IMG/VR virus record: IMGVR_UViG_3300035438_001498
Coordinates: 1 to 35,559 of that record
Strand: one strand, 5' to 3'
From: a virus
Length of the DNA stretch: 35,559 bases
Below the pieces are notes generated by a model. The model ran no database searches, was not told the DNA's origin, and saw nothing but the letters and a program-made list of their open reading frames with translations. Positions 570-35,559 of the stretch are shown here, piece by piece; position 1 is the first letter of the stretch; every line of letters starts with the position of its first letter. The position numbers and the translations under genes were made by a program.

Positions 570-2099
570 TTACATCACGAAAACTTGCCCAGTCGCCTCG
601 TTTAAAACGTCGTTGAACAAAATTTCCATGTCTAGGGCAAGAGTTTCCGTAACCTGCTTTCTAGTTTGATCATCGCGATCTTCTCTATTGAGAGTGAGCC
701 AACGTGTGGGGTTTCCCCAAGCTTTTTTCCCATAAGGTAATCGAATGGGTAGAGGATTCAATTGAACTTTTCCAGTTGCAAGATACTGAGCAAACAATTC
801 ATAAAGAAACTCGTATGGTCGATTAATTAAATTTTGACGACTGCTTCGCTGCGTTCCAATTGCATTAAATAGCGAGTTGTATTCGGAACGCTGAGAGAAT
901 TCCATTCTGTTAGTCATGTCGATAGGTTTATTATACATATCTCTCAAAATGTTATTAATCTGAAGAAAGAAATGATTTTCGATTTCTTTCCACGAATAAG
1001 CACGCCCACGCGATTGTATGGCATGGCCAATTCTATGAGCCATCGTCCACGGAGTCATAACTACATGCTCTGCGCCTGCATTACTCACAAACACGACAGT
1101 TATGGCATCTTCCGTGTTTGATAGTATTTTGTCCGCATCTTGCGGAAACATTCGTTCTATCTGAGTCGAGTCTGTTCGTCCCATTTCTCGATATTTTCCA
1201 GAACCTGGTCTATTACTGAAGAACAATCTAAAATTTACTGGAGTGTTTCTGAAAAACTTTACGGTCTTTAGTTGACTAACTCTGCTTGAAACTAATCTAC
1301 GATCTGGTTGCCTAAATGATCCAGTTTTCGTGAAATCTCCCACAGTCTGGTAGTCACTGAGTGGCATTTCTGTGACGATAGATTCATTATTTTTTTGACG
1401 TTTTTGTTCGTAGTAATAAAGTGGATCATTGAAAACGATTGTTCCATCTGATCTTTTCATTATGTTCGAAAGCGAGTAGTCAAATAGCCAACTACCTTTA
1501 CTTTTTGGAAGTTTTTCTGCGTATGACTGGAGATTTAAGGCAGTTTCGTAGAAGTTTTTCCAATTCTTGCGGTCTTCGCGAATAGCTTTGTCAGTTAATT
1601 GTAAAGCATGTAAGTACCTTAAAGTTCCAGACGTTAGTTTATTAACAGGAGTATCGTCAGATTTTACTACTGGTTCAATTGCTGGTCGTGCTGCTATTTC
1701 TTCTTTAACTTTTGCTTCTACTTCTCGCCACGATAGTCTGTTATACAGGTACTCTTGTAGGAGTTTAGCAATTTCTTTTTGATCTGCATTCATGTGATCA
1801 AGTTTTTCCAATTCAACTACCAATATACGATCTTGATCTCGTTGAACTATTTCGCTACGCAAAATTTTTGGTAATGCTGGATTATCGGGATTCGCTCTTA
1901 CATATCTAAGAAATCCAAAAAAACTACGAATAGCTTGATTGGTTCTAACGTCAGGTTGCCCGATCACATATTTGGTCACACGGTCATCGTGGATAACGAC
2001 CAGAGAATCTACACCACGTTCAATTCTTTTGCCAGGATATTCATCACGAATGTCATGTGCGAGCGTCCATGAGCGTTCGAATAGAACATGAAGCTTCAT
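570..2099 (-). CDS. large phage protein with kinase-like N-half and degenerate zincin-like C-half (509 aa)
   Basis: No close named homologue comes to mind. The N-terminal half has spacing reminiscent of a divergent protein kinase fold: a possible Lys in VTKYV (K43), a hinge-like ILVVELEKLDHM (~92-103), a catalytic-loop-like DYSLSNIM (D207, N212) and a metal-binding-like VFNDP (D225). The C-terminal half contains AHRIGHA (H355, H359) and, 75 residues on, YELFAQYL (E434). This resembles the H-x-x-x-H...E zinc site of zincin peptidases, but the catalytic Glu of HExxH is Arg, so it may be inactive. It begins MKLHVLFE, ending in L-F-E like a T4 prohead-protease site. It sits one base after the stop of the GP88-like gene, probably co-transcribed. 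Both domain calls are inference from motifs. Confidence 0.8.
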   Translation of the reverse strand: MKLHVLFERSWTLAHDIRDEYPGKRIERGVDSLVVIHDDRVTKYVIGQPDVRTNQAIRSFFGFLRYVRANPDNPALPKILRSEIVQRDQDRILVVELEKLDHMNADQKEIAKLLQEYLYNRLSWREVEAKVKEEIAARPAIEPVVKSDDTPVNKLTSGTLRYLHALQLTDKAIREDRKNWKNFYETALNLQSYAEKLPKSKGSWLFDYSLSNIMKRSDGTIVFNDPLYYYEQKRQKNNESIVTEMPLSDYQTVGDFTKTGSFRQPDRRLVSSRVSQLKTVKFFRNTPVNFRLFFSNRPGSGKYREMGRTDSTQIERMFPQDADKILSNTEDAITVVFVSNAGAEHVVMTPWTMAHRIGHAIQSRGRAYSWKEIENHFFLQINNILRDMYNKPIDMTNRMEFSQRSEYNSLFNAIGTQRSSRQNLINRPYEFLYELFAQYLATGKVQLNPLPIRLPYGKKAWGNPTRWLTLNREDRDDQTRKQVTETLALDMEILFNDVLNEATGQVFVM

Positions 2100-2100
2100 T

Positions 2101-3312
2101 CTAGTGCTCTAGAAGATACGTACCAAGTACGTCTCTGCGAGTGGCAGAGATATCACCGTCTCCCGGTTTTACTATGACATTATACTGATTCGTAGAACCT
2201 TTAGAAGCCTTCAACATTTCGTCATAGGTCAAAATACTAGCTACATCAATGTCATATGTGCCAGCGATTTTCTGCTTCAGATCTTTTATTGCCTGTGCGG
2301 ATTTGTAAATCATCTTTGAGGCAGTCTTTGGCTTGCCATCTTTGTCCTTTTTGCCAGTTGGCATCTCTTTGCGAGTGACGTAATCCATATACAATTCTTT
2401 TGGCACAATGACTGAGTGCTTGTCCTTCTTGAAGTCAACTTTCTTTTCTTCTCTACCCTTGGCACCCATGCTAAAGTTAATAACAAAGTTGTCAGGTTTA
2501 GTTGACTTGACTACGTCCGCTATCTTGGTATAAGCGTAGAATGTGGCATCGGGTATTTCTCTAGCTAAGTCGAATGCTTTGTTCACGTATGCTGGTGAGA
2601 AGAAATCTCCTGCATCATGCCATCTGATGTACACATCATTCTTTTTCTTGGTATTCTTTTCCACAGCTTGTTTTACTTCCTTTTTAAGCTGACTCATAAA
2701 TCCATCTGGGTCATTAAGCAAGTAGTTCAATAGACGAGTTTGAGAAAGAGAACTGGCTTCCCATTGAACATAACCGCCTTTTTTAGCAAAGCAAACAATC
2801 TTGCAACTGCCGGCGCCAGGACAGGTGTCAACTACGTAAAATTCACCAGATTTTTCATCAACTGCCAGCCCTAGTAATGCAGGCAGTCCAACATTATAGA
2901 AAACGCTGGTAGAACCATCGCTGTGCTTCATCTTTTCGTTTTGTTTTAGGATCTTATCTGGACGTTGGGTAAACAATCTTCTCAATGCGTCTAAATCGTA
3001 CTCATTATTATTCTTATCGACTATGGGAATTACCGAGCCACGATGAATATAGGGAAGCTTATATTTGTCAGTGGGCTCTTTTTCTTTTGTAATAACTCTG
3101 TCAAGATAGCTTTTAAGCTCATCGTTGGAAAGCTTTCGTAGGGAAGCGCCTAAAAATTTGTCAGGATCCTCGGTTATTGCGTCCGTCTCAACTGTTTCGT
3201 CTTGAACAAAGTCTTGAAGAGACATGACTTTTATCTTAGGAGGAAGATTGCCATTAAATGGGTCATCACTCACATCTTCAAAAAGCTTGTTAATTAATGT
3301 TCTAAAATCCAT
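2101..3312 (-). CDS. GP88-family phage protein (403 aa)
   Basis: Residues ~136-400 match the GP88 family first described from mycobacteriophages and plasmids, whose function is not established. The marks are the Cys cluster CPGAGSCKIVC (C164, C170, C174), the core RWHDAGDFFS (230-239), the downstream FYAYTK (258-263), and a basic C-terminal part. The Cys cluster suggests metal or cofactor binding, but that is inference. The first ~130 residues are an acidic extension, beginning with a leader (MDFRTLINKLFED) that contains L-F-E, similar in style to T4 capsid-targeting leaders. ATG 3312 is preceded by AAGGA with 7-base spacing. The gene is first of the minus-strand pair and divergent from uvdE. 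Confidence 0.85.
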   Translation of the reverse strand: MDFRTLINKLFEDVSDDPFNGNLPPKIKVMSLQDFVQDETVETDAITEDPDKFLGASLRKLSNDELKSYLDRVITKEKEPTDKYKLPYIHRGSVIPIVDKNNNEYDLDALRRLFTQRPDKILKQNEKMKHSDGSTSVFYNVGLPALLGLAVDEKSGEFYVVDTCPGAGSCKIVCFAKKGGYVQWEASSLSQTRLLNYLLNDPDGFMSQLKKEVKQAVEKNTKKKNDVYIRWHDAGDFFSPAYVNKAFDLAREIPDATFYAYTKIADVVKSTKPDNFVINFSMGAKGREEKKVDFKKDKHSVIVPKELYMDYVTRKEMPTGKKDKDGKPKTASKMIYKSAQAIKDLKQKIAGTYDIDVASILTYDEMLKASKGSTNQYNVIVKPGDGDISATRRDVLGTYLLEH

Positions 3313-11809: not shown

Positions 11810-12118
11810 ATGAACAAACTAATCCGTGATGGCAAGGTTGCTGTTCTCATCAGCCCGGGATTTGGTGCTGGTTGGTATTCTTGGCACTGCAAGGAAGAAC
11901 TGCTGTTTGATCCTGTGGTGGTCGAGATGTTGCTAGAGAGTCAGCACGATGAGATTGAATCCTATGTTGAAAAGACCTACGGAGACGATTTCTATCTTGG
12001 CGGCGTTGATGGTCTGACGGTAGTGTGGGTCTCCGAAGGTGCTGAATTCAGGATCAAGGAATATGATGGTGCTGAGTCGTTGGTTCTCAAAGAAGAAGAC
12101 TATTGGATCAAGGCATGA
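11810..12118 (+). CDS. conserved phage protein, MNKLIRDGKVAVLISPGFGAGW type (102 aa)
   Basis: The opening MNKLIRDGKVAVLISPGFG followed by AGWYSWH is a conserved pattern in many phage proteins of unknown function. The middle holds LFDPVVVEMLLESQHDEIESYV and the end has VVWVSEGAEFRIKEYDG. The Gly-rich loop (SPGFGAGW) resembles a binding loop, but it is not a P-loop because GKS/T is absent. GGAG precedes the ATG. The stop overlaps the next start in an ATGA arrangement. Confidence 0.78.
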   Translation: MNKLIRDGKVAVLISPGFGAGWYSWHCKEELLFDPVVVEMLLESQHDEIESYVEKTYGDDFYLGGVDGLTVVWVSEGAEFRIKEYDGAESLVLKEEDYWIKA

Positions 12119-12558
12119 ACGCTTGGAGTCATCTGCCTAACGCAGAGCACATTGATCGCATTATTGAGTTAATGAAAGCGCATCCAGAGGCTTGGGATGC
12201 GGCTTATACTGCGGCTAGGACTTCTAGGACTTTGACTGCGGCTAGGGATGCGGCTAGGGATGCGGCTAGGGATGCGGCTAGGGATGCGGCATGCGTGGCG
12301 GCATGGGCTGCGGCTTATAATGCGGCATGGGCTGCGGCTAGGGATGCGGCTAGGGATGCGGCATGCGTGGCGGCATGGGCTGCGGCTTATAGTGATTCAA
12401 TCCTAGCTCTCATCGCTTATGATGACGCCGCCAGGTATCTAGAGATGAGCAGCTATGAACTCAAGATTTGGGTAGTACTGAGTGAAGAACCCGCTGCTAT
12501 TCTTCTGTTGCCAACAGTGATTGCGTTTGAACAAATCCGAGAGATGAAAGCAGCATGA
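12115..12558 (+). CDS. Ala-rich tetrapeptide-repeat protein, copy A (147 aa)
   Basis: ATG 12115 (ATGA overlap) is preferred to a TTG at 12103. Three parts are visible. The N-terminus MNAWSHLPNAEHIDRII is followed by ~25-95, made of AARD, AAWA and AAYN-like four-residue repeats. The C-terminus contains SILALIAYDDAARYLEM and LSEEPAAILLLPTVIAFE. The repeat must form a long Ala-rich helix with Arg/Asp spaced every four residues. The neighbour at 12555 has the same ends and a different repeat length, so the two are recent tandem duplicates. Function unknown; a structural or protein-binding rod is inference. Confidence 0.82.
   Translation: MNAWSHLPNAEHIDRIIELMKAHPEAWDAAYTAARTSRTLTAARDAARDAARDAARDAACVAAWAAAYNAAWAAARDAARDAACVAAWAAAYSDSILALIAYDDAARYLEMSSYELKIWVVLSEEPAAILLLPTVIAFEQIREMKAA
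12191..12390 (+). repeat. 12-bp minisatellite (GCGGCTAGGGAT-type) in Ala-rich gene A
   Basis: Tandem 12-bp units with the core GCGGCT plus variable AGGGAT, TGGGCT, TATAAT or CATGCGTG-like halves. A larger duplicated block (AGGGATGCGGCATGCGTGGC and following) occurs twice. Units are in frame. Confidence 0.85.
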
Positions 12559-29291: not shown

Positions 29292-31682
29292 TTAAGCTCC
29301 TACTGGAGTAACTGTTACAATGACTGAGGGTACATCGATGCCCATCGTAGTGTTTGCAGAATCGATTGCAATTAACTTTGCAGCGATGTCTGCACTGCCC
29401 CACATTAATCTAAAATAATCTCCAGTATTGGCAGTTTCTACAAAATTCCATGCAGCAATTTCATATTCGTTCGCGGCGTCGAGTTTAAGTCTAGTACTGC
29501 TCCATGGAATTGTGTTGCCATTTTTGTCTAGCCATATCTCAATATAATCTACGCCACTGTCTGTTTTAGTGCATTGAGCACTAAATTGTATGTTGTAAAC
29601 TCCTGTCTTAGGCACAGTGATGTTTGAACTATTATTGATAAACACGCCACTGTTACTTGAGATGTTGTTAAACGTCATTGGAGTTGGAGTGCTTGCTCCA
29701 AGGGTGTTTTGAGTGACGTTGCTATAGAAAGCGCCGTAAATCGGATTGTAGTTGATGTTTCCGCTTACTTGTAGATTGCCTGTTACATTTGCTGAGTTTG
29801 CGGTCAAGCCAGACAATGTTCCTAAACTAGTAATGTTTGGTTGCGCAGCAGTTGTTAGATTACCAGAAATAAGATTGCCGATCAACGTGTTTGATAATCT
29901 GATTGATTGGAAGTCAACTACAGCATTTACACTGGTGCCCAGATTTGAGTTGGCTCTGTCAAAGTAAAAGTCATCGTATGCGACAAATGTAGAAGCACCG
30001 CAATTTATTTTTGCTGGTGTTTGATCGGGGTTGACCGCCAGTGTATTTCTGATATTCAACACGCCGGCAGTAGAGTTTATTGCGTTGAATCCTGAGTTTG
30101 CAGGAGTATATAAGAGTGCATCAAATACGTTGAGAGAACCCAGTGTGAGATTTGCTTGCAGTGTGGTGCTGACATTCAACAGATTTACCACAGCGTTTGC
30201 ACTGTTGATCGTAAGCAACCCTATGCCTGTGTTACTGAATGTGACATTACCGGGACCTGTGATAGATACGGGCGTGATGTTTGCCCCCGCTGTTAAGTTC
30301 AGTTGCACATCTTGTATTGCTAGACCGCCGTTGCCGCTTTTTGATAAAGCGCCCACTATGTTTCCTGTACCTAAATTGAAACCTGTCAAGTATAGCGTAC
30401 CGCTAGAAGTGTGAGAAATAGTATCTCGTACTCCAATTCCTTTGAAACTAATCGAAGTACTATTGCCACTGACAGTCAAGTTACCATAAATCGCAGGAGT
30501 AAACGCTTGTCTTCCGCCTGTTGTGTCACTTGATATCGTGAGTGCAACCTTATTAGTAATAGTAACATCTTCATTGTAGTCGCCCGGACGGACTATGATA
30601 ACTTCCCCATCTCCTGAAACTGTAACTGCTTTGGTAATCGTTTGATAGGGATTGAGTAGTGTTCCATTGCCTGTAGTGTCGTTGCCATTAGTTGAAACAT
30701 AAATCTCATAGGGATCTAGCACCATGCCCGTGACGTTAGCAATGTTTACACTGTTTGCAGTATTAGCAGTATTAGCCGTCGATGCAAACACAGCATTTGA
30801 AACATTGCCAGTGATTGAAGTAAATGTAGCGTTATTGGCAGACACGTTGCCAAACGTTCCATTACCTGTGACAGCTAGGTTACCAGACGCTAAGTTGCCT
30901 GTTATAGAAATACTGTTAGGCAGATTGACTGTAATAGATCCCGCAGAAACTACTGGACTGCCCGATACAGTCAGAGTAGAACTGTTAATACCAACGCTGG
31001 TAACTGTGCCACCAGATACTGGCGAACTGATAGTTACGTTGCCGTTCGGCCCACTTATCGTGATGCCGCTGCCTGCATTGATACGAGTCACACCAGTGTT
31101 GGTAACGATGATAGTCCCATTCGAGGTTATAGGTGACCCAGAAACCTGTATGCCAGTACCTGGTGCGACTGCTACGCTTGTGACTGTTCCAGATGGTGCG
31201 CCATTTGCTGCACTTGTGACGCGACCAAATGAGTCCACCGTAAATGAGGGATTACTATAATTACCAGCAGTAACTCCACTGTTGGCCAGATCAATTCCTA
31301 TGTTACCGGAGCTTGTTATGGGAGAACCAGAGACTGTGAGTCTGGCTGAGGGCAGTAGTCCCACGCTAGTTACTGTTCCGCTACCGCCGTTGCCACTGCC
31401 GTTCGAAGAAATTGTGACTGCACCAGTAGCCTGATCAATAACTATACCAGTGCCAGCAATGATGCTGGTAACGCCAGTATTGGTAATAGTGACTTGGCCA
31501 GCATTTGAATTCTGAGATACACTTATCCCTGTGTTGGCCGAAAAGGTGGTATATTGAGACGCACAAGCAAACAGATTGCTAAAATTATTGTTGATTTTGT
31601 TAAATGCGACGTACAAAGAGTCGCTATTAGCTGCCTCGTTTGGTAAACCTATATTGATTGTCTGTTGCCCTGTGATAGCCAT
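29292..31682 (-). CDS. tail fibre/adhesin with GTVTSVG repeats, beta-helix and C1q-like tip (796 aa)
   Basis: Residues 1-40 are a conserved start (QQTINIGLPNEAANSDSLYV, AFNKINNNFSNLF). Residues ~100-320 carry Ser/Gly/Thr-rich repeats around GTVTSVG and LTVSGSPI. Residues ~322-400 (EIYVSTNGNDTTGNGTLLNP, YQTITKAV, VIIVRPGDYNEDVTI) are typical of the start of a right-handed parallel beta-helix. The last ~130 residues (YNIQFSAQCTKTDSGVDYIE, WLDKNGNTIPWSSTRLKL, ANTGDYFRLMW) look like a trimeric C1q/TNF-type jelly roll. This fits a host-recognition fibre. AAGGATC precedes ATG 31682. Confidence 0.85.
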   Translation of the reverse strand: MAITGQQTINIGLPNEAANSDSLYVAFNKINNNFSNLFACASQYTTFSANTGISVSQNSNAGQVTITNTGVTSIIAGTGIVIDQATGAVTISSNGSGNGGSGTVTSVGLLPSARLTVSGSPITSSGNIGIDLANSGVTAGNYSNPSFTVDSFGRVTSAANGAPSGTVTSVAVAPGTGIQVSGSPITSNGTIIVTNTGVTRINAGSGITISGPNGNVTISSPVSGGTVTSVGINSSTLTVSGSPVVSAGSITVNLPNSISITGNLASGNLAVTGNGTFGNVSANNATFTSITGNVSNAVFASTANTANTANSVNIANVTGMVLDPYEIYVSTNGNDTTGNGTLLNPYQTITKAVTVSGDGEVIIVRPGDYNEDVTITNKVALTISSDTTGGRQAFTPAIYGNLTVSGNSTSISFKGIGVRDTISHTSSGTLYLTGFNLGTGNIVGALSKSGNGGLAIQDVQLNLTAGANITPVSITGPGNVTFSNTGIGLLTINSANAVVNLLNVSTTLQANLTLGSLNVFDALLYTPANSGFNAINSTAGVLNIRNTLAVNPDQTPAKINCGASTFVAYDDFYFDRANSNLGTSVNAVVDFQSIRLSNTLIGNLISGNLTTAAQPNITSLGTLSGLTANSANVTGNLQVSGNINYNPIYGAFYSNVTQNTLGASTPTPMTFNNISSNSGVFINNSSNITVPKTGVYNIQFSAQCTKTDSGVDYIEIWLDKNGNTIPWSSTRLKLDAANEYEIAAWNFVETANTGDYFRLMWGSADIAAKLIAIDSANTTMGIDVPSVIVTVTPVGA

Positions 31683-31699
31683 AAATTGATCCTTATGAT

Positions 31700-33109
31700 C
31701 TATTTATCTTGTATCGTGTTGGGAATAATCATCAAAAAGTTTCCAAAATTATACGCACTAGAATAAGAAGAATTTACACCAGCCAACGCTTTTGCAGCAG
31801 CTAAACCAGCCAACGCTTTTGCAGCAGCTAAAGAAGATTGTTTATATGTATAAATTGAATAAAATTGGCTATTAAGAGTTGTAAAGATTGAATTATACCC
31901 ACGGATTCTAGATCTCAGCCCCCAGATAGTATTTTTGAATACAGATATAACTTCGGGTAACTGGCCGCCAATCTCTTCGTTATTAGATTCAAAATATTGT
32001 TGTAACCATTTAACTGAAATATCAGTTTCGTTAACAATAGTGTCGTATATTCCTTTTAAATCGGGATCCCATCCAAGAGGGCTAGTGTCTATACCATCTT
32101 TAGCCATTCGTTCATAGTCGATGTCACCATCTTCAGTTTGATACTCCGCTTCAGTCTGATAAAGCCATTCTTGATAGCTTGAATTTCGGTCTGCTATGTC
32201 ATCAACTATCTCATTTAACCACATAACAATGTGTTTATGAATAGTATCAAGCAATCTTGCTAATTCTTCTTCTGAGGCAAATGCAATTATATCCTGGGTG
32301 TATTCGGGTTCTGCATTCTTTATTACTGGAATAAGTTGAGGATAGTCTTGAACAAAGTTGCCAAACGAGTATGATCGGTCATTTTCGTCTTTAAACTGTT
32401 GTGATGGAAAATGCAGTTGATATCGTTCATCTTTTCGGCTAGGATTCTTTATAATGAAGGTGTAAAGAGGTCCTTGTTGATTGTAATCATTGAACAGATT
32501 ATGTTGCGGATCTGGACTGGCTGTACACCATTCTTTGCTTCCAAAATTACATGCAGCCTCTTGATTAAGAGGTGTTAACATGGTAATTTCAGCATCATCA
32601 TACAACACTTTGTATTTTGGATCTTTAAACTTACTGGTAACTGACTGCAAAATTTCCTGAGGATCGTAGTTATCCTTCATCATTTGGTCAAAATCTGAAT
32701 ATTTTGCGAACTGGTTGATATCGCGATGCTCTGGCTTTATCATTCTGCGCAGTTTGCCAACATGAAAAGCTTTTAAGCGATCTGCCTTATTGATATCTTC
32801 GATGTGCGTCTTGCCCTGATCTTTGACCAGTGATCTTACTAACCATGGAGTATATTCTTTGTTTTCAGTAGGGTCTTTGTCTTCTACCATTGTAAGGAAT
32901 AAATCGATAAGCTGTTTCTTTAAAACCTCGTCACCCTTTCGAATAGAATTAGACACGAATCTGTTGATCATGCCAGAATACTTGGGCATACTCCCTTCGA
33001 TATTAGTTGCGACTCTATCTTTTTTCAAAACGTGCATCAAAAAAAGATCACCCAGTTTGCTTCTAGTGATGTCTCTGCTGTATTCTGTTAAAAATTCCGT
33101 GCTTTTCAT
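31700..33109 (-). CDS. putative internal virion protein with CNFGSKEWCTA domain (469 aa)
   Basis: ATG 33109 is preferred to GTG 33115, because it yields MKSTEFLTEYSR, matching its neighbours' leaders and ending in the L-T-E of a T4 prohead-protease site. The body contains KVLYDDAEITMLTPLNQEAA, CNFGSKEWCTASPD (187-200) and GPLYTFIIKNPSRKDERYQLHF. That pattern is shared by large viruses and phages ([YF]G-x-x-x-WCTA), with no known function. The C-terminus contains a 9-aa duplication (LAAAKALAG). An internal, injected protein is inferred. Confidence 0.8.
   Translation of the reverse strand: MKSTEFLTEYSRDITRSKLGDLFLMHVLKKDRVATNIEGSMPKYSGMINRFVSNSIRKGDEVLKKQLIDLFLTMVEDKDPTENKEYTPWLVRSLVKDQGKTHIEDINKADRLKAFHVGKLRRMIKPEHRDINQFAKYSDFDQMMKDNYDPQEILQSVTSKFKDPKYKVLYDDAEITMLTPLNQEAACNFGSKEWCTASPDPQHNLFNDYNQQGPLYTFIIKNPSRKDERYQLHFPSQQFKDENDRSYSFGNFVQDYPQLIPVIKNAEPEYTQDIIAFASEEELARLLDTIHKHIVMWLNEIVDDIADRNSSYQEWLYQTEAEYQTEDGDIDYERMAKDGIDTSPLGWDPDLKGIYDTIVNETDISVKWLQQYFESNNEEIGGQLPEVISVFKNTIWGLRSRIRGYNSIFTTLNSQFYSIYTYKQSSLAAAKALAGLAAAKALAGVNSSYSSAYNFGNFLMIIPNTIQDK
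31701..31710 (-). promoter_or_regulatory. possible T4-type late promoter element (AAGATAAATA)
   Basis: Minus-strand AAGATAAATA ends 19 bases upstream of the fibre start and overlaps the stop of the 31700 gene. Identical to the element ahead of the GP88-like gene. Low information content. Confidence 0.35.
31778..31831 (-). repeat. 27-bp perfect tandem repeat, two copies, in frame
   Basis: 31778-31804 and 31805-31831 are identical (ACCAGCCAACGCTTTTGCAG + CAGCTAA). On the coding strand each gives nine residues, LAAAKALAG. It sits near the C-terminus of the 31700 gene. Confidence 0.92.
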
Positions 33110-33115
33110 CTTCAC

Positions 33116-33700
33116 TCAGCCCCAACTTAGATGCACGTTATTTTCTTGAGCAAATTTGACAAGTTCTATGAGTCGATCAACATAGCGATCTACTTGTTCT
33201 TGGCTTCTGCCGAAATCATGCATGGTAGGACCCGTACTGATTCTAGACATTCCCTGTTCATCTTTGGTTGCCCTGGCTGGTCCTCTTGAAGTTGAAGGTT
33301 CAACTGTATATTCTGCGGAACCTTTGTTTTTCAATCTGAGTAATTTACGCATAACTTCTGGCAAATCTTTGTTATCGATCATTCCAGAATAGTCTGGGTC
33401 TAATCCAAGCATCTCTTGTATTGCCGTTCCATTATCATTACTTACTGAGAGTTCAGGAGCAGTGCTGACCATTTCGGTTTCGATGCCTGTTCCTTGGCAG
33501 TAAGGACAAGACGTAGGGTTATTGTTTCTGTCTGTTATCTTGCCTGTACCCGAACACGCCTCGCAGGCTCCCCTGTTCACTTTCTTCCACCATCGCTCGC
33601 CAGTCATTAGTATTCTCTTCTCGCCTTTTTCATCCGTGTAATCTCGCATCTCAGCTGGGCCGAATGTCATGCCTTCGTTTATCAATTCGTTGATTTTCAT
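33116..33700 (-). CDS. DnaJ-type zinc-finger phage protein (194 aa)
   Basis: Two CxxCxGxG motifs, CEACSGTG (C46, C49) and CPYCQGTG (C65, C68), 15 residues apart, form one DnaJ-type zinc centre, without any J domain. After it come APELSVSNDNGTAIQEMLGL, DLPEVMRKLLRLKN and a C-terminal block with SRISTGPTMHDFGRSQEQVD, which recur as a unit in environmental myophages. The N-terminus MKINELINEG matches the leader pattern of its neighbours (I-N-E). It may bind unfolded substrates or be a virion chaperone; inference. Stop followed closely by the next gene. Confidence 0.85.
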   Translation of the reverse strand: MKINELINEGMTFGPAEMRDYTDEKGEKRILMTGERWWKKVNRGACEACSGTGKITDRNNNPTSCPYCQGTGIETEMVSTAPELSVSNDNGTAIQEMLGLDPDYSGMIDNKDLPEVMRKLLRLKNKGSAEYTVEPSTSRGPARATKDEQGMSRISTGPTMHDFGRSQEQVDRYVDRLIELVKFAQENNVHLSWG

Positions 33701-33739
33701 ACAGTTATTCTCTAATTTTTACCAGTTTTAATATTGTTC

Positions 33740-33922
33740 TCATTTCTTGCGACCTCTGAATCCAACTGGCATTTGCATATCGTTTACAGGGAACATTGCT
33801 TTGAACCATTCATCTGTTCCGGGCTTAGCAGTAATCTTGCTGCGATTGACAGGTTCCATCACCGTTGATTTTCCACGATGGTCAGTCACGCCCGCTAATC
33901 TTTTTAGTTCATCTAAGTTCAT
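33740..33922 (-). CDS. small phage protein, MNLDELKRLAGV type (60 aa)
   Basis: MNLDELKRLAGVTDHRGKST is a recurrent start in small virion-region proteins of marine phages. The middle is Lys/Pro-rich, and KPGTDEWFKAMFPVN is the most conserved-looking part. The end is basic (GFRGRKK). No ribosome site is evident. It sits between the zinc-finger gene and the transglutaminase-like gene. Function unknown. Confidence 0.68.
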   Translation of the reverse strand: MNLDELKRLAGVTDHRGKSTVMEPVNRSKITAKPGTDEWFKAMFPVNDMQMPVGFRGRKK

Positions 33923-33967
33923 AGATTACGATACCGCTGCATAGTTATCATCTAAGACTTCCTCTTC

Positions 33968-34330
33968 TCATTTTAAGTCCCGAGGTCCCCAGGTTTCTGT
34001 ATCAAGGAGTTTTTCATCCATTTGTTTTCTATCATAGACAGCATATTGTCCTGGCTGAGTGACAACGTTGCCTAGATCATAGTAGAACTCTTTGCGCAAG
34101 ACGATGTTACGCCCATTGCTTTTGTCGATGACTACGTCACCCACTTCGTTCCAAGCGTGTGTAAATCTCTTTCCTGCTACAGCCCTCTGACCAGTGACGT
34201 AAGCATGAACTAGCTTCATGCCAGGAATGTCAGATTCAATCATGTTACGACCTGCCGCCACAAAGCAGTCCCCACCCTGTGCAGACTTTTTACGTTTAGA
34301 TGCTTCTAGCGTGAACTCTTTTGATTTCAT
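33968..34330 (-). CDS. conserved phage protein with transglutaminase/papain-like Cys-His-Asp pattern (120 aa)
   Basis: GGDCFVAAGRNMI (C22), VHAYVTGQRAVAGKRFTHAW with H58, and NEVGDVVIDKSNGRNIVLRK with D69 are arranged like the Cys, H-A-W and Asp of transglutaminase-like papain folds. The end (TETWGPRDLK) is also conserved in a common marine-phage protein of unknown function. Family membership is by eye. The leader MKSKEFTLEASKRKKS resembles its neighbours, although T-L-E is an imperfect protease site. Its start overlaps the upstream gene's stop (ATGA), so it is coupled. Confidence 0.78.
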   Translation of the reverse strand: MKSKEFTLEASKRKKSAQGGDCFVAAGRNMIESDIPGMKLVHAYVTGQRAVAGKRFTHAWNEVGDVVIDKSNGRNIVLRKEFYYDLGNVVTQPGQYAVYDRKQMDEKLLDTETWGPRDLK

Positions 34331-34809
34331 AGCCCGATTTTCTCAGGGTACATAGGACTATTTTTTACTCTTTCACCGCCATCAAAATATCTAATTTCAA
34401 TTGGCATTGTTTGCCAGTTTAATTTATGAGCAGCCATAATACGATGATTTCCTTCGTTGACCCATGCTTCACCGTTATATGCTACCATTATAAATGGCAA
34501 GTGTTCTTCATCAGGATAGCTACGCATAGATGGTAATTTACCTGTCTTTCCCATGTAATCTATTAAGAACTGTAAGTCATTTTTGCGCACGTTTTGTTGT
34601 TCTCCGCGCAAGCCGGGAAGATGAATTAATTTATCTACACGTACTTTTGGAGGGCTACCTTTAACATAAGCAGTGATACTACCGAAATGAGGAGCGCCAA
34701 AACTATTACGACCTTTGCTTTTAGCATAGTCTATTTTCTCTTGTAACCAATCTTCATTAGGTACGCTTGTTACTAATGTTCCTTCAGTAATAAATTCTTT
34801 TGATTTCAT
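34327..34809 (-). CDS. ParB/sulfiredoxin-like domain protein with virion-type leader (160 aa)
   Basis: MKSKEFITEG at the start, with I-T-E as a possible gp21-type cleavage site. Residues ~55-130 have the ParB-like layout: KVRVDKLIHLPGLRGEQ, DLQFLIDYMGKTGKLPSMRS, a strand FIMVAYNGEAW, and the signature VNEGNHRIMAAHKL (117-130), equivalent to the G-[EN]-[RH]-R-x-x-A loop. It lacks a DNA-binding HTH. Such single-domain proteins can be nucleases, NTPases or kinases; activity not determinable. Start and stop both overlap neighbours. Confidence 0.8.
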   Translation of the reverse strand: MKSKEFITEGTLVTSVPNEDWLQEKIDYAKSKGRNSFGAPHFGSITAYVKGSPPKVRVDKLIHLPGLRGEQQNVRKNDLQFLIDYMGKTGKLPSMRSYPDEEHLPFIMVAYNGEAWVNEGNHRIMAAHKLNWQTMPIEIRYFDGGERVKNSPMYPEKIGL

Positions 34810-35360
34810 AAACTACGGCCCCAGCGGGTATTGATGACGTTCCAGTTTATGATCTTCCACTGTTCTTTCAGATACTTCTTCTTGTCACTGCCGTAATCTA
34901 AGATGAATGCGTGCTCCCACCAATCTACTAGAAGTAAAATGTCGTCACGTACTTGATGATTTTTGATGACCTTGATCTTGCCGTCCCATGCTAGATATAA
35001 CCAGTTGCTTCCTTGCAACTTCATTGCTTCTTCTTGAAAAGCAGCCTGCATTTCAGAATAGCCACCAAAATGCTTTTTGATGAAACCTTCCATGGGCCCA
35101 TTTGGCGGATTATTATTTCGAGGTTCTCTAAACTGCGGGAACAAGGTGTTATGCAAGAAGGCTCCTGCGTAATTGAACTCAGGATCGCCTTCACCTTTAT
35201 TGAAGCGATCTGCGTAACCTTTTGCTAGCTTACCATAGTGCAATTCGATGGTGGGCTTAGAGATGACAGGAGATAATTCCCCTTCTTTGTAATTAAGGGG
35301 AATGATCTCTATGTCTTGTGGCTTAGATTTTTCTTCTAAAAGCGTAATAATTTCTCGCAT
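34806..35360 (-). CDS. Fe/Mn superoxide dismutase (184 aa)
   Basis: Converts superoxide to oxygen and peroxide. The four metal ligands are in place: H41 (ELHYGKLAKGYADRFN), H70 (AGAFLHNTLFP), D146 and H150 (LVDWWEHAFILDYG). The C-terminal YLKEQWKIINWNVI is typical. GSNWLYLAW (~117-125) matches the family's G-S-G-W-x-x-L. It is slightly shorter than bacterial SodB (about 193 aa). It has an N-terminal extra of ~17 residues (MREIITLLEEKSKPQD) with an L-E-E site, like the leaders of its operon partners. Fe versus Mn cannot be decided. Coupled to the downstream ParB-like gene by an ATGA overlap. Confidence 0.93.
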   Translation of the reverse strand: MREIITLLEEKSKPQDIEIIPLNYKEGELSPVISKPTIELHYGKLAKGYADRFNKGEGDPEFNYAGAFLHNTLFPQFREPRNNNPPNGPMEGFIKKHFGGYSEMQAAFQEEAMKLQGSNWLYLAWDGKIKVIKNHQVRDDILLLVDWWEHAFILDYGSDKKKYLKEQWKIINWNVINTRWGRSL

Positions 35361-35379
35361 AAGGTATTTATGCGAGAAA
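35351..35379. repeat. 12-bp perfect inverted repeat over the SOD start codon
   Basis: TTTCTCGCATAA (35351-35362), loop GGTAT, TTATGCGAGAAA (35368-35379). On the minus strand the SOD ATG (35360-35358) lies in the 3' arm. The loop side also gives CATAAATA, similar to a late promoter core. Confidence 0.85.
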
Positions 35380-35387
35380 TGTAGGGT

Positions 35388-35559
35388 TTAATATCCGTAT
35401 CTGCTCTTCAGCGCATCGAAAATATTGGTTGCTTCGGTAGAAGACAGTACTCGGTTGTACACAGAAGTATAAGCTAAATTACCTTCAAATGCACTCTCTG
35501 AACTAGGATTGAACGCCCATGTGCCTATATAAGCATTAGCGTTTGAAGAATAGTCAGAT
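35388..35559 (-). CDS. 3' end of a LamG/concanavalin-like structural protein (partial)
   Basis: The minus-strand frame entering from the window edge gives SDYSSNANAYIGTWAFNPSS, then FEGNLAYTSVYNRVLSSTEA and TNIFDALKSRYGY with TAA at 35390-35388. The pattern G-x-[IL]-A-Y-x-x-[VL]-YNR-x-L-S-x-x-E followed by F-x-A-L-x-x-RY is the usual last strand and helix of LamG/ConA-like domains in phage virion proteins. Only 56 residues are visible. Likely a capsid decoration or tail protein. Confidence 0.75.
   Translation of the reverse strand, partial: SDYSSNANAYIGTWAFNPSSESAFEGNLAYTSVYNRVLSSTEATNIFDALKSRYGY

Follow-up and report, generated by a model that had tools for sequence, protein, structure and literature searches.

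Probable T4-style capsid-targeting leaders on a large and varied set of candidate cargo proteins of an uncultured giant phage and its relatives

The IMG/VR record IMGVR_UViG_3300035438_001498 is a linear viral fragment of 35,559 bases from an uncultured giant phage (analysed here in full and called the window), and a cluster of genes on its minus strand, at 31700-35360, encodes otherwise unrelated proteins that share a short leader at the N-terminus. T4-like capsid-targeting leaders on these proteins are well supported by the leader itself, its enrichment and modularity, a prohead protease and a capsid site in relatives, and sites at the joints of fused proteins, all of which are established at the level of sequence. 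The leaders probably mark a large and varied cargo that is cut and ejected with the DNA; for the phage of the window itself, we infer virion location, cleavage and injection. In the proposed mechanism, the leader would dock a cargo protein onto the prohead core during late assembly, a gp21-type protease (Peptidase_S77) would cut after (L/I)-x-E to free the mature protein inside the head, and the cargo would leave the head together with the DNA, enter the next cell and act in that host. The tag would be carried by a large and rapidly exchanged set of enzymes, including superoxide dismutase (SOD), ParB/sulfiredoxin (Srx), kinase-like proteins, ADP-ribosyltransferase (ART), GNAT, zeta-like kinase and peptidoglycan hydrolases, and in some relatives with fused cargo the same protease would separate the domains at [LIVM]xE joints.

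A sequence-only reading of the window had proposed such leaders for five proteins of the cluster and possibly for those starting at 2099 and 3312, and all of these starts were recovered on the minus strand. In that reading, the five would also serve as an enzymatic first strike on the cell. The Fe/Mn SOD (184 aa, 34806..35360) begins with MREIITLLE (35334-35360), followed by EK, and its identity was borne out by two Pfam domains above their cut-offs (PF02777, 1.6e-21; PF00081, 2.3e-6). H41, H70, D146 and H150, which from general knowledge of the family are presumably the four metal ligands, are invariant in an alignment of 18 SOD homologues. A protein of 160 aa (34327..34809) begins with MKSKEFITE (34783-34809), followed by G. 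Its ParB-like label has a weak match by sequence (phrog_8071, 0.015) and agrees with its AlphaFold model, for which the top Foldseek matches in the PDB are sulfiredoxin and ParB-N (probability 1.00, E 0.003-0.008), so that a ParB/sulfiredoxin-like fold is predicted. The third protein (120 aa, 33968..34330) matches no Pfam family, looks transglutaminase/papain-like by eye, and has the leader-like start MKSKEFTLE (34304-34330), followed by A. As the genes of these three proteins overlap as ATGA, they are probably translationally coupled. A protein of 194 aa (33116..33700) begins with MKINELINE (33674-33700), followed by G; its description as a DnaJ-type zinc-finger protein holds for the two CxxCxGxG motifs, whereas the match to PF00684 (E 1.9e-5) lies below the curated cut-off. 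The last protein of the cluster (469 aa, 31700..33109), with a fold without assignment, begins with MKSTEFLTE (33083-33109), followed by Y. A pattern search for its relatives among viral contigs gave none, and local BLAST later gave four, with the leaders MKASEFLIE, MKSVEFLFE, MRANEFLIE and MRATHFLTE; on the basis of the first three, its start is placed at 33109 and not at the GTG six bases upstream where the longest open reading frame (ORF) begins. The (L/I)-x-E ending claimed for most leaders is present in four of the five in the cluster, the remaining one ending in T-L-E.

Both additional candidates, also on the minus strand, end in LFE. One is MDFRTLINKLFE (3277-3312, then D) on a GP88-family protein of 403 aa (2101..3312; PF17338, 7e-33) whose homologues start with MNFKELFE/G, MKIKHLME/G and MNIIELME/G (the slash marks the predicted cut, here and below). 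The other is MKLHVLFE (2076-2099, then R) on a two-domain protein of 509 aa (570..2099), which combines a part resembling the T7 gp0.7 kinase (phrog_15752, 2.3e-8) with a “MAHRIGHAI” domain. This second domain has an HRIGH motif and no Pfam match, and in the relatives L073 and L021 it stands alone behind MRANDFISE or MRAIEFIVE. The model of the 509-aa protein, with a mean pLDDT of 50, was too poor for a structure search.

The leader is apparently a removable tag and not an integral part of a folded domain. The alignment of the SOD with solved SODs of the PDB begins only at residue 18, compared with residue 3 for SODs of the E. coli type. Among the 18 homologues, which include that of the Pseudomonas jumbo phage PA5oct (39% identity), residues 1-18 have just three invariant positions, M1, I5 and E9. 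The phage SODs whose leaders are equally long, 39 of 39, all have E9 and either L or I at residue 7, and residue 10 varies among them. In the AlphaFold model of the ParB-like protein, residues 1-18 are likewise unstructured (pLDDT<50).

The search for SODs led to 80 IMG/VR loci on contigs of up to 524 kb, and the ORFs of these loci and of the window gave 1321 distinct N-termini. An (L/I)xE motif ends at residue 9 in 10.6% of them, compared with about 1% at residues 11-59. When sequences from residue 15 on were grouped into 382 body families and each family was counted once, the motif was found at residue 9 in 25 families and in about 4 at other positions, which means that a short N-terminal sequence is common to otherwise unrelated proteins; at least 27 different bodies stand behind MRANEFIxE. 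A stricter leader pattern, M[RK]..[EDH][FILV].?.E, matches three of the 59 ORFs of the window, all three within the cluster, and in four long contigs of related genomes, read from end to end, it occurs at 26 of 1485 starts compared with 7 of 7096 internal methionines, and shuffling of residues 2-12 (200 rounds) left 0.7 matches on average and 3 at most.

Varied bodies next to a constant start could also be the mark of a recombination joint, and a T4-like late-promoter core, ATAAATA, is present a few bases ahead of the SOD gene (35361-35375, minus strand). The shared start would then be an element of the DNA, for instance a hot spot of recombination or an enhancer of translation, and not a targeting peptide. 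This is very improbable in view of how the leader is encoded. A DNA pattern for MRANEFIxE was found in at least 120 IMG/VR stretches, and 82 sites were read among the matches listed; 69 of these have no earlier in-frame ATG, 51% are preceded by a Shine-Dalgarno-like stretch, compared with 19% of ATGs in general, and behind the sites stand 27 clusters of bodies with 24 distinct 27-mers. Synonymous positions thus vary freely while the amino acids are kept, which implies that selection acts on the protein. The glutamate and the L/I/V/M before it are moreover conserved at joints within proteins, which do not require a start codon. A T4-like late promoter as a general feature of leader genes was rejected, as ATAAATA precedes 12% of them compared with 15% otherwise; TTGACA is rarer before leader genes (0.4% vs 5.6%).

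A capsid-targeting role is further supported by the head genes of the relatives. The gp21-type protease that such a role calls for is present as Peptidase_S77 (PF03420, E 1e-24 to 1e-29) in 8 of 8 SOD-bearing contigs >200 kb and in PA5oct, where it is EST35_0152. In the contig G007 and in PA5oct, the genes are ordered as portal (so annotated in PA5oct), small core protein, further head protein, protease, scaffold and major capsid protein, an order which resembles that of the T4 head genes. The capsid precursor has the site LLAE/SSAG or LLAE/STAG in the four contigs checked and LVE/NASAG in PA5oct, which aligns with FLTE/AEIG of T4 gp23. T4 gp23 is cut at FLTE/A. The likeness to T4 proposed for the leaders also stood up to comparison: T4 ipII and ipIII start with MKTYQEFIAE/A and, aligned on the cut, have E-F-I-x-E in common with MRAxEFIxE. 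Short amphipathic N-terminal tags are known in general to serve other localisations, a point of general knowledge and not a result obtained here, so that the leader might be conceived as a degron or as a tag for the membrane, the nucleoid or the phage replication compartment. This idea is very improbable: the leaders match T4 internal proteins exactly in E-F-I-x-E, a gp21-type protease co-occurs with them and the capsid precursor has the motif as well, all of which indicates the prohead.

Ten N-terminal residues suffice to package IPIII in T4, with residues 4 and 7 counting in targeting and residues 8 and 10 in processing, and gp21 cleaves after L/I-X-E (PMC9026906). The system described here resembles T4 IPI-IPIII and Alt in having about ten N-terminal residues on unrelated proteins, a core of E-F-I-x-E and a predicted cut after (L/I)-x-E by a gp21-type protease, and one relative even encodes a leader-bearing ART (L070:4186-4788, MRAKEFIPE/G, PF03496 1e-12), comparable to Alt. 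This Alt-like enzyme lies directly beside a fused GNAT-ParB-kinase cargo protein, in the same type of operon. In contrast to T4, the leader is mostly one or two residues shorter, the cargo families are far more numerous and include SOD and zinc-finger proteins, which are not known as T4 cargo, and there are multi-domain cargo proteins with internal sites as well as twin-arginine (Tat) signals behind a site. Separately, some leader proteins, a few of them small and basic, continue after the leader with T(S/T)AG..IATV, like the start of the mature major capsid protein, SSAGTTTAGNIATL (L225:3184-3354, L243:1571-1999, L174:7400-7597, G001 near 202652 and G006 near 290985). With only five cases, this text may mimic the site at which the capsid protein is cleaved.

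The site is also found inside fused proteins. The ParB-like domain either stands alone behind a leader (in the window, L073 and L065) or is contained in longer leader-bearing proteins, and there an unrelated linker takes the place of the leader while the site is retained, as in GQQGVTE/GTLSVDVPNE (L003), QEQGLIE/STLSVDVPNE (L041), EPGLTE/STLSVDVPNE (L059) and PQNKMTE/GVLSVDVPNE (L040). For a general count, joints were taken from pairs in which the body start of a protein with the strict leader aligns >=50 residues into another protein, and were deduplicated. An [LIVM]xE motif ends exactly at 26 of 72 distinct joints, where about one would be expected, as the frequency of the motif in these proteins is 1.36% per position. 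At each offset up to ten residues before or after the joint it occurs about three times, and the excess at the joint itself argues that Glu-rich linkers alone are insufficient as an explanation. In the window, the 509-aa protein has a candidate internal cleavage motif V-T-E/M (1368..1376, minus strand) between its domains, in the layout kinase-like part, IVTE/MPL and leader-associated domain; relatives have TVDE/MAL, EVNE/MAL and PIDE/MAL in the same column. With [LIVM]xE at the joints, one protease would split the fused domains too, which suggests that cargo polyproteins are cut inside the prohead.

Among the collected proteins, eight twin-arginine-type signals follow [LIVMT]xE within about 8 residues. 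The signal stands directly after the leader in L038:11994-12638, L188:413-1297 and L224:10868-11542, and is internal in L206:9338-10531, L215:5172-6263, L228:1235-2539, L132:7939-10983 and L038:7475-9514. Examples are MRATEFISE/DISRRGFLGGLAGMAAGSA behind a leader and DLEE/NITRRGFLGGLAGLAAGAAAA at residue 152 of the L215 protein, both ahead of a GH19 domain, and the bodies recognised behind these signals are GH19, LysM plus SLT and an M48 peptidase. One comparable signal, in L189, is located at the start of a protein without a leader. A Tat signal in the middle of a protein is best understood as one that a cut exposes; the set is a small one that was noticed and not predicted. It is an evenly balanced question whether such cargo is organised as polyproteins in which one capsid leader precedes a string of effectors with prohead-protease sites, to be cut into units able to pass the tail, with some cuts exposing a Tat signal so that the protein is addressed to the capsid and then to the periplasm of the new host.

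Leader proteins might instead be structural proteins of the core or shell, or maturation factors, that are processed at assembly and kept in the particle without being injected. The same protease cuts core proteins in T4 (PMC9026906), the head-core protein beside the portal of PA5oct starts with MKINDIITE/G, and virion or tail-fibre genes neighbour the cluster on its strand: a tail-fibre-like gene (29292-31682) adjoins it and a truncated ORF (35388-35558) beside it has a C-terminus that matches virion structural proteins. The bodies recognised behind leaders are SOD, ParB/Srx, kinase-like, ART, GNAT, SLT, NT5C, GP88, zeta-toxin-like kinase, GH19 and M48. Against a purely structural role, which is unlikely, most of the recognisable ones are enzymes with substrates on the side of the host (SOD, ART, GNAT, zeta-like kinase, peptidoglycan hydrolases), and in several of them a signal for export in the host comes after the site.

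Mass spectrometry (MS) of PA5oct, taken as flags from GenBank notes in which N-termini are absent, is relevant to packaging. Its homologues of the SOD (EST35_0261) and of the 469-aa protein (EST35_0205, annotated as a structural protein) are both flagged as found by ESI-MS/MS. Among 272 PA5oct genes entered by hand, with many of the smallest unflagged genes left out, M[KRH]..[DE][FILVM] starts belong to 8 of the 93 flagged genes, compared with 2 of the 179 unflagged ones (one-sided P 0.0035).

Several points weigh against the interpretation of the leaders as marks of injected cargo. The pattern just given was drawn from metagenomic leaders but chosen after the PA5oct list had been seen, and plain [LI]xE is not enriched among the flagged genes (8/93 vs 14/179). 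The list also includes replication enzymes, so contamination is possible and the MS evidence is supportive, not decisive. In the window, there are no head genes among the ORFs of the fragment, and MKSKEFTLE, one of the five leaders, breaks the (L/I)-x-E consensus. Finally, 46 of the 72 joints lack the motif at the exact offset.

Packaged cargo has been described in other systems. Polyvalent proteins are multi-domain effectors of phages and conjugative elements for which injection with the DNA was proposed, and their processing was tied to an embedded metallopeptidase domain, DdrB (PMC5512222). ParB/Srx, kinase, GNAT, ART and peptidoglycan-hydrolase domains are common to both groups, and at least two disparate domains per polypeptide are found in the relatives L041, L070, L011 and L015 and in the 570-2099 protein of the window; Kinase-PolyVal matches stayed below the cut-off. 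As to a metallopeptidase of this kind, the second domain of the 570-2099 protein has the HRIGH motif but no Pfam match. Here, however, the joints carry sites of the prohead-protease type, the polypeptide starts with a T4-type capsid-targeting sequence, and many window proteins have a single domain. The Dar system of phage P1 has defence proteins that are packaged in the virion, and a packaging signal at the N-terminus of DarB can by itself direct a reporter (PMC9024508), but this signal lies within the first 30 residues and no short tag common to many proteins was described (PMC9024508). PA5oct-like Pseudomonas jumbo phages (Arenbergviridae) share the SOD (39%), the 469-aa protein, the gp21-type protease and a gp23-like capsid protein, and differ in more divergent leaders, such as MNDSIKKYISIAE/A on the SOD, and in fewer recognisable leader proteins. 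In the literature covered, which included few subscription papers and no bioRxiv preprints, no description was found of capsid-targeting sequences in this lineage, of prohead-protease sites that separate cargo domains, or of Tat signals behind such sites. The principle is known from the capsid-targeting sequences of T4 and P1; the novelty appears to lie in the scale, in the layout as polyproteins and in the relay of addresses.

A megablast search of the window against annotated phages gave no match and no near relative, and genes of the replication type, among them an endonuclease, an exonuclease and a DNA ligase, lie on the plus strand, as does an ORF (12115-12558) with a repeated AARD motif (AARDAARDAARDAAC) in a low-complexity tract. 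Within the cargo operon, a protein of 60 aa starting with MNLDELKRLAG (33740-33922, minus strand) has an apparent relative in L201:2702-2911 (MDIAELQKLAG), and its start was also compared with that of a 498-aa structural protein of PA5oct, MFNINDILRLAG. A second class of leader defined by this “LAG” start was rejected, with a single relative in the pool.

If the interpretation as capsid-targeting leaders is right, a nine-residue tag predicts from sequence the likely cargo of uncultured giant phages, and dozens of families, many with no domain known, can be counted as candidates for injected effectors with roles in anti-defence, redox, transcription takeover and cell-wall entry. An injected SOD, to take a speculative case, could dampen an oxidative burst or protect the DNA. 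The T4 rule would be extended to a large lineage of uncultured phages, a further use of the prohead protease in separating effector domains would be suggested, and cultivable PA5oct-like phages would offer a list of proteins that is immediately testable.

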